Source of the DNA: an uncultured Rhodospirillales bacterium | Lineage (GTDB): Bacteria; Pseudomonadota; Alphaproteobacteria; Acetobacterales; Acetobacteraceae | Reading direction: 5' to 3' | Assembly (NCBI GenBank): GCA_903844785.1 | Contig: CAIMVB010000491.1 | Location: 1-10,529, forward strand | Length of the DNA: 10,529 nucleotides | Shown: in pieces, positions 10 through 1,487 of the stretch | Position numbering within the stretch: position 1 is the stretch's first letter | Layout of the letters: each line of letters begins with the position of its first letter | Position numbers and translations under genes: made by a program | The notes under the pieces: generated by a model | The model's input: only the letters and a program-made list of their open reading frames with translations | Told to the model about the DNA's origin: nothing | The model's database searches: none

Positions 10-24
10 TGTTATAAAGTAACA
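10..24. promoter_or_regulatory. Candidate Zur operator (zinc uptake regulator box) in front of hisI
   Basis: The sequence TGTTATAAAGTAACA is a 15-bp inverted repeat with perfect 5-bp outer arms (TGTTA / TAACA) around a 5-bp centre. From memory, the alphaproteobacterial and enterobacterial Zur box is close to TGTTATnnnATAACA; this site has the same length and differs only at one position (G for A at 19). It overlaps a -10-like hexamer and ends one base before the hisI ATG, so a bound repressor would block RNA polymerase. The downstream genes (zinc enzyme HisI and a COG0523 GTPase) are the kind of targets Zur controls, which is independent support. What is seen is the repeat; Zur binding is inferred. 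A different Fur-family regulator or chance are the alternatives. Confidence 0.6.
13..18 (+). promoter_or_regulatory. Putative -10 element of the hisI operon; possible leaderless start
   Basis: TATAAA lies six bases upstream of the hisI ATG, inside the candidate Zur box. If it is a sigma-70 -10 hexamer, transcription would begin at or next to the A of the ATG, giving a leaderless mRNA; there is also no good Shine-Dalgarno sequence before this ATG. The matching -35 element would lie outside the left window edge and cannot be checked. Confidence 0.4.
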
Positions 25-444
25 ATGACACTGACCGCCACCCCTATCTCCACCGCCGCCCGCGATGCCTTGCTCGCGGCCATCAAGACCGATGCCTCAG
101 GGCTCATTCCTGCCATCGCCCAGCAGCATGACACGGGCGAGGTGCTGATGATGGCCTGGATGAATGCGGAAAGCCTGGCCGAGACACTCTCCACTGGCCG
201 GGTCTGCTATTATTCCCGTTCGCGCAAGGCGCTCTGGCGCAAGGGGGAAACATCGGGCCAGGTGCAGATGCTGGTGGATCTGCGGCTTGATTGCGATGGC
301 GATACCATCCTTCTGCTGGTGGATCAGCAGGGCGTTGCCTGCCATACCGGGCGGCGCAATTGCTTCTACCGCGCCCCGCGCGGCGAAACCCTCGCTAATA
401 TCGCGGAGCCGCTGATGGACCCGAAAGCGCTTTACCGCAAATGA
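25..444 (+). CDS. hisI: Phosphoribosyl-AMP cyclohydrolase (HisI)
   Basis: HisI opens the adenine ring of phosphoribosyl-AMP to give ProFAR, the third step of histidine biosynthesis, in the cytoplasm. The 139-residue product is a stand-alone cyclohydrolase without the HisE pyrophosphohydrolase domain. Diagnostic motifs are the LWRKGETSG segment near residues 70-78, DCDGD at 89-93 and the CH-x5-CF segment at 106-114. By family knowledge Asp89, Asp91 and Asp93 bind Mg2+, and Cys90, Cys106 and Cys113 are the zinc ligands, so the metal sites look intact. The catalytic domain starts near residue 26; the preceding 25 residues are poorly conserved, so a TTG at 70 is a possible alternative start. The stop overlaps the next start as ATGA, implying translational coupling to the COG0523 GTPase. 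No other his gene is in the window. It may be a Zur-controlled second HisI copy rather than the only one, which the window cannot settle. Confidence 0.93.
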
Positions 445-1487
445 AGCTCATTCCTGTCACGGTGCTGACTGGCTTTCTCGGCGCAGGCAAGACCACGCTA
501 TTGAACCGACTGCTCAAGCATCCTGAGATGGACGGCAGTGCCGTGCTAATCAATGAATTCGGCGAGATTGGGCTGGATCATCTGCTGGTCGAAAAGCTGG
601 ATGAAGATACCGTTCTGCTGAATGCCGGCTGCCTTTGCTGCACCATCCGCGGTGATTTGCAACGTGCGCTGCGCGATTTGGCACTGAAAGCCGAAGCCGG
701 GCATGAAATTCGCCGCGTGCTGATTGAAACCACGGGCCTGGCCGACCCCGCGCCCATTCTGCAAACACTCATGAGCGACCCGGTGGCGCTACGATCCTTT
801 CGCCTGGATGGCGTGGTGACCGTGGTGGACGCGGTACTCGGCGCCGCCACGCTGGATAGCCAGATTGAAGCAGTGAAGCAGGCCGCCGTTGCGGATAGGC
901 TGATCCTCAGTAAGACCGATATCGCCCAGGCGGACCACTTGAAGGCGCTTGAAGCGCGGTTGCGTGCGCTCAATCCCGGCGCGCCCATCAGGCATGTGGT
1001 GGCTGGCGATGTCGCGCCAGATTTTCTGTTTGGCACAGGCGGATTTGATTCCGCCGGCAAGATTGCCGATGTCGCAGCATGGTTGGCGGCAGAGGCCGCG
1101 CATCATCACCACCATCATGGCCATCACCACGACCCCAATCGCCATGATGCGCGTATCCAGGCCTTTGGGCTGACCTTCGCGGAGCCCCTCCCCTGGGAGG
1201 GCCTGGCGACCTGGCTTGAAATGCTCGTAATCACGCGCGGCGCCAGTATTCTGCGCATGAAGGGCATTCTGAACCTGCAAGGGGAAGACCGCCCTGTGGT
1301 GCTGCATGGCGTTCAGCATGTCTTCCACCCGCCGGAATGCCTGCCCGAATGGCCGCCGGGGCATGACAGGCAATCGCGGCTGGTTTTCATCCTGCGCGAT
1401 CTGGACCGTGCGGTGGTGGAAGAAGGCTTGGCGGCCTTCCTGCAAGCGGCGCGGGATAAGGCCGCCCTTAGCGCCGGCACGGCCTGA
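441..1487 (+). CDS. COG0523/CobW-family GTP-binding metallochaperone with histidine-rich segment
   Basis: This is a 348-residue G3E-type GTPase of the COG0523 family, whose members (CobW, YjiA, ZagA, ZigA and others) use GTP to deliver metal, often zinc, to client enzymes in the cytoplasm. Visible in order: Walker [10 protein letters not shown] at 11-19; the family-defining metal-binding C-x-C-C motif at Cys64, Cys66, Cys67; the ETTGLADP segment at 96-103; the guanine-specificity motif as SKTD at 157-160; a histidine run at 221-230 (six His, Gly, three His); then the CobW C-terminal domain from about 236. The histidine run sits in the linker between GTPase and C-terminal domains, a common place for metal-binding tails in this family. 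The start overlaps the hisI stop by ATGA. The pairing and the upstream Zur-like box favour a zinc role over cobalamin synthesis, since no cob gene is nearby. The exact client is inferred. Confidence 0.92.

Follow-up and report, generated by a model that had tools for sequence, protein, structure and literature searches.

The question raised by this locus was whether the palindrome lying directly in front of hisI is a Zur operator and, if so, which genes it would control and what kind of hisI it would serve. The window, i.e. the whole stretch of DNA that was analysed (10,529 nucleotides), corresponds to contig C491 of a draft genome (517 contigs, 3.39 Mb, 91.7% complete), the kin of which are Acetobacteraceae, and it starts at the contig end. 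The following features were recorded:

10..24, no strand assigned: Zur-box-like palindrome TGTTATAAAGTAACA of the 7-1-7 type (site counts, weight matrix, conservation and the Caulobacter zrpW match)
13..18, + strand: TATAAA within the box, putative -10 element of hisI (sequence and inference)
11..16, - strand: TATAAC, putative -10 element of a divergent zur (sequence, layout of relatives and inference)
25..444, + strand: hisI, phosphoribosyl-AMP cyclohydrolase, 139 aa, the sole PF01502 match in the genome (profile matches)
441..1487, + strand: COG0523 / CobW-type G3E GTPase, 348 aa, with GCLCC (CXCC) and a His-rich stretch (Pfam and motif)

The first-pass annotation had described a box of the 15-bp Zur layout with one deviation from the palindrome, overlying TATAAA at the start of hisI, and the letters agreed with it: TGTTATAAAGTAACA at 10-24 differs in one base from the palindrome TGTTATNNNATAACA, contains TATAAA at 13-18 and directly precedes the hisI ATG, which begins at 25. 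Because only six bases separate TATAAA from the ATG, this spacing suggests a leaderless hisI mRNA. When the close-clade gaps were inspected, no AGGAAG-like stretch was seen in the bases before hisI, and an AGGAAG stretch was present before zur (AGAAAG in G025). A promoter scan of the matching stretch of one relative (L015) returned no sigma-70 promoter pair.

The HisI protein scored 172 bits with the phosphoribosyl-AMP cyclohydrolase model (cut-off 126), and its Cys90, 106 and 113 aligned with cysteines of 1zps, which we take to be the zinc ligands. Since all three are kept, the window HisI is likely still a zinc enzyme. The coupling of hisI to a COG0523 gene, also claimed from the sequence earlier, was upheld: the TGA of hisI overlaps the ATG of the second gene (ATGA), and the product of the latter matched PF02492 with 162.5 bits and PF07683 with 87.6 bits. 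With the named NCBIfam equivalog models, ZigA and CobW, the same protein did not reach the cut-offs. A natural 12-residue run was observed between its two Pfam domains.

A gene across the box from hisI was beyond the view of the first-pass annotation and was recognized in the relatives. Among the 34 genus relatives, G017 being without hisI, a zur-like gene (a FUR-family match) stood divergently across the box, directly upstream of hisI, in 33/33 genomes with hisI. The zur-like open frame was about 170 residues long in the close clade. The G004 protein had 7dh7 (1.4e-30) and E. coli Zur 4mtd (7e-28) as its best solved relatives, and a representative scored 127 bits with the NCBIfam Zur model, below the cut-off of 167. 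In all 18 close genomes the box directly adjoins the hisI ATG, and the six close-clade loci measured have 25 bp between the box and the ATG of zur. No FUR-family gene was found in the 91.7% complete draft of the window genome, whose contig ends before the expected position. Because the zur-like gene adjoins hisI in every one of these relatives and the window begins at a contig end, the window probably holds a divergent zur/hisI-COG0523 promoter cut by the assembly, the zur gene of this genome itself being presumed from its relatives. At the level of the order, zur was divergently adjacent to hisI in 27/100 genomes, the window genome not being counted owing to its contig end. In G025:C39 (L241:643-2749), zur, hisI and COG0523 were also observed in a row of one direction that follows a perfect box, TGTTATGTGATAACA; this assembly has the normal divergent copy elsewhere and 6% contamination, so the row may be foreign.

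It was then asked whether the site is more than a chance likeness. Only two places in the whole 3.39 Mb draft genome were found with no more than one mismatch to TGTTATNNNATAACA, namely the hisI site and C330:2028-2042, the latter preceding the zinc ABC transporter genes aztAB (AztA match 224 bits, cut-off 220; AztB match a partial reading of 183 bits, below the cut-off of 280). A reversed-pattern control gave three places at the same threshold, and at no more than two mismatches 12 places were counted against 27 for the control, i.e. no excess. Enrichment by count within this genome alone was therefore rejected, the number being below the reversed control. The location of the sites, not their count, does stand out, as both of the best places precede zinc-related genes.

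A weight matrix was built from 21 site words that belong to other genes in the genus (training range 23.8-32.4 bits) and were chosen at no more than one mismatch, so that the matrix favours look-alikes. The hisI site scored 22.6 bits, just under the training range, and the aztA site 24.6 bits, its word being itself one of the 21. The remaining ten places at no more than two mismatches reached 13.5 bits or less, and the next best place within the window 6.9 bits. The matrix p values refer to first-order simulated sequence, and TATA elements may help the scores.

Summed over 35 genomes of the genus, 70 places with no more than one mismatch were found against 18 for the control; these genomes are kin and the counts are not independent. 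Of the 67 that were inspected, 55 lie in front of zur or a zinc-uptake gene (18 zur/hisI, 15 aztA, 21 aztC-like and 1 second zur) and six in front of DUF1826, where the same stretch also has a COG0523 match; the remaining six precede none of these. One aztC-like protein matched PF01297 ZnuA with 280 bits and the AztC model with 281 bits, below the cut-off of 350, and the one DUF1826 protein examined was PF08856. The aztC sites come from relatives, the identified transporter site of the window genome being that of aztAB. Eight close-clade loci (L076, L221 and six others) have a divergent ArsR/SmtB-type regulator gene across the aztC box from aztC, one of these regulators being checked; Zur and another metal sensor may share that promoter.

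Conservation of the box was strong in close relatives and weaker in more distant ones. Of 18 close genomes, the window genome included, 17 had the same 15-mer, and in the eighteenth, G029, two bases were changed together, resulting in a perfect palindrome. Over these 18 genomes 13/15 columns of the box were invariant, compared with 15/30 just upstream and 5/27 after the ATG. The best gap scores of the 16 far-clade members of the genus with hisI ranged from -9.6 to 14.3 bits versus 22.6 in the window; against simulated sequence 13/16 of these gaps reached p<0.02, possibly aided by TATA elements, and the matrix found no site at that level in the gaps of G030, G018 and G010.

The wider set comprised 80 hisI loci, the best 80 of 518 confirmed ones picked by likeness to the window HisI, and a divergent zur match within 450 bp was present in 41 of them. 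A box at p<0.01 was detected in 13 of these 41 gaps. Five of the 13 belonged to close-clade genomes or repeated far-clade ones, and the remaining eight were from Falsiroseomonas, Pseudoroseomonas, two other Roseomonas, two Thalassospira and two MAGs. As the other 28/41 gaps, including those of Rhodopila, Roseococcus and Reyranella, showed no box at p<0.01, the adjacency of zur and hisI does not need the box. The expectation that the site is conserved before orthologous pairs thus held for the close clade and some other genera, the box being weaker in the far clade and undetected in 28 of the 41 wider gaps. The proposal of a Zur-type operator before the hisI-COG0523 pair was itself supported, the site ranking with zinc-transporter sites and being kept in the close clade.

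In far-clade gaps such as those of L042 and L041, TGATACTGTATCA-like palindromes with shorter spacing were seen at the same position instead of the box; operator drift or a site of a different protein is possible. A far-clade palindrome, TGATAYNRTATCA, was tried as the mark of a regulon by a genus-wide search, and among the matches listed, of which those in hisI gaps were inspected, no regulon was shown.

It had further been suggested that, if a second hisI existed, the window copy would be a dedicated low-zinc enzyme. This idea was rejected, since a single PF01502 match was found in the window genome (91.7% complete), the gene is of the common lineage and its three cysteines are kept. Among the 34 genus relatives 31 had one match, G025 and G033 had two (the second of G033 being a contig-start piece), and G017 none. 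All 100 genomes of the order had hisI, with exactly one match in 96; the exceptions were G079 (overlapping pieces of one gene), G084, G099 and G129. A HisI tree (114 rows) placed the window protein with its zur-adjacent close kin, inside a large group with the Azospirillum, Komagataeibacter and Chromatiaceae proteins, while the extra copies of G129, G099 and G035 formed a separate branch with support of 100. The tree has few columns, 49/107 of its inner forks are open, rows L147 and L199 were dropped beforehand, and it was built from loci resembling the window HisI, thus not being a sample of all HisI. Being the sole match and falling within the common lineage, the window gene is most likely the ordinary hisI copy.

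Two of the three extra copies had zur-like, DUF1826 and COG0523 matches nearby, and the third had a DUF1826 match. In L244 (G129:C49) and L246 (G099:C91) the second hisI is diverged (45-48% identity) and followed by COG0523, and DUF1826 and zur-like matches lie nearby on the opposite strand, so that it is an island-type hisI2. Linkage of COG0523 was recorded for 29/40 zur-adjacent hisI and 4/35 others (Fisher p=1e-7, on 75 of the 80 loci, five being dropped as cut by contig ends). The association of COG0523 with zur was not significant when kinship was allowed for, as only one usable pair on well-supported branches was left, and the claim was dropped.

We proposed that the site is a Zur operator shared by the two sides of a divergent zur/hisI-COG0523 promoter and that both sides would respond to low zinc, with a probability of about 0.77. 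The points read directly from sequence are the site, the gene order, the zur-like neighbour in relatives, the box common with zinc-transport genes and the single hisI match; Zur binding and the response to zinc are predictions. When zinc is sufficient, zinc-bound Zur would occupy the box, its dimer spanning TATAAA in the hisI direction and TATAAC in the zur direction, and by covering the -10 regions of both genes it would reduce zur and hisI-COG0523 transcription. Under zinc shortage, Zur would leave, and zur and hisI-COG0523 would rise together with the zinc-uptake genes, which are aztAB here and also aztC in relatives. The cell would then contain more HisI and more of the COG0523 GTPase encoded beside it, which would probably help to deliver zinc to HisI or to another client, HisI being the most economical guess. 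Strict repression of the sole histidine gene in high zinc would lead to auxotrophy, and this counts against the proposal. Repression of hisI is likely partial, because the controlled gene is the sole hisI found.

A more specific version, in which hisI-COG0523 would be a client-chaperone operon that places an essential single-copy zinc enzyme under the zinc repressor and supplies the HisI client first when zinc is short, is offered tentatively, the odds being somewhat against it. Few clients of COG0523 GTPases are established, and a hisI-COG0523 unit facing zur names one that can be tested. If the proposal is true, the Zur response would protect an existing zinc enzyme and not swap in a spare copy.

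Three other explanations of the box were weighed. Since hisI is needed at all zinc levels, the box might be a Zur site used mainly for autoregulation of zur, with hisI-COG0523 scarcely affected. Autoregulation of zur is common, hisI is the sole copy found, and in Rhodopila, Roseococcus and Reyranella loci zur and hisI are adjacent although no box was detectable, all of which would agree with such a role. The geometry in close relatives argues otherwise: the box abuts the ATG of hisI and is 25 bp away from that of zur, and a dimer bound over the TATAAA before hisI should hinder initiation there. In addition, the downstream partner belongs to COG0523, a family often present in Zur regulons according to the part of PMC2770081 consulted. 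Taken together, service mainly to zur was considered unlikely.

It was regarded as very improbable that there is no operator at all and that an A+T-rich -10 region merely contains a chance palindrome. The site count of two against three in the reversed control, the TATAAA inside the box and the far clade, which keeps a TATA-type element and not the same palindrome, are what one would expect of such a coincidence. It would not account for both arms being kept in 18 close genomes, where the sole variation improves the symmetry, nor for the same type of box marking aztA and aztC and for the zur-like gene adjoining it in relatives. Least probable of all was binding by another FUR-family protein (Fur, Irr or Mur) instead of Zur. 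In 23/33 genus relatives with hisI there is indeed a further FUR-family match, its PF01475 score being much stronger, but G006, G007, G008, G012, G014, G022, G023, G025, G027 and G029 are without such a strong match and all ten carry the box before hisI; moreover, the box-bearing genes are mostly zinc-uptake genes and the adjacent protein matches Zur best.

The proposed shared Zur operator was finally compared with known systems. In Paracoccus denitrificans, as far as the consulted part of PMC5387054 goes, a divergent zur/znuA promoter carries the 15-bp alphaproteobacterial Zur motif, and aztA and a COG0523 gene also have such motifs. Common to both systems are zur divergent from a zinc gene and a Zur motif, a 15-bp palindrome, in the common gap, whereas in Paracoccus the divergent partner is a transporter gene and not a biosynthetic enzyme, and there are two motifs, tested by EMSA. 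The predicted Zur sequence of Caulobacter crescentus zrpW, as printed in Table 1 of PMC4176598, contains the exact reverse complement of the window 15-mer; the table gives this gene as 8.15-fold up in a zur mutant, and it differs from the genes here in being one for a putative transporter. ZagA (YciC) of Bacillus subtilis, in the portions of PMC13339975 and PMC10882993 consulted, is a low-zinc COG0523 GTPase with FolE as its client; as proposed here, it is thought to supply zinc to a cyclohydrolase, but FolE is a different cyclohydrolase and HisI is a putative client.

Among open-licence titles and abstract openings on HisI with Zur or COG0523, no report of a sole hisI under Zur was found; Additional file 5 of PMC2770081, with candidate sites that include alphaproteobacteria, may hold a hisI entry. 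The closest counterparts are the Zur-controlled hisI paralogs with COG0523 published for Pseudomonas (PMC2770081, in the part consulted), of which hisI2 of P. protegens is listed in a table of PMC6103462. As described in these portions of the sources, they share with the window a HisI with its zinc ligands kept, a COG0523 partner and a predicted or observed induction at low zinc. In Pseudomonas hisI is an extra copy, whereas here it is the only hisI found, belongs to the common lineage and has zur divergent from it in relatives. Unlike those paralogs, the gene under Zur here would probably be the only detected HisI, of the zinc type, together with its COG0523 partner.
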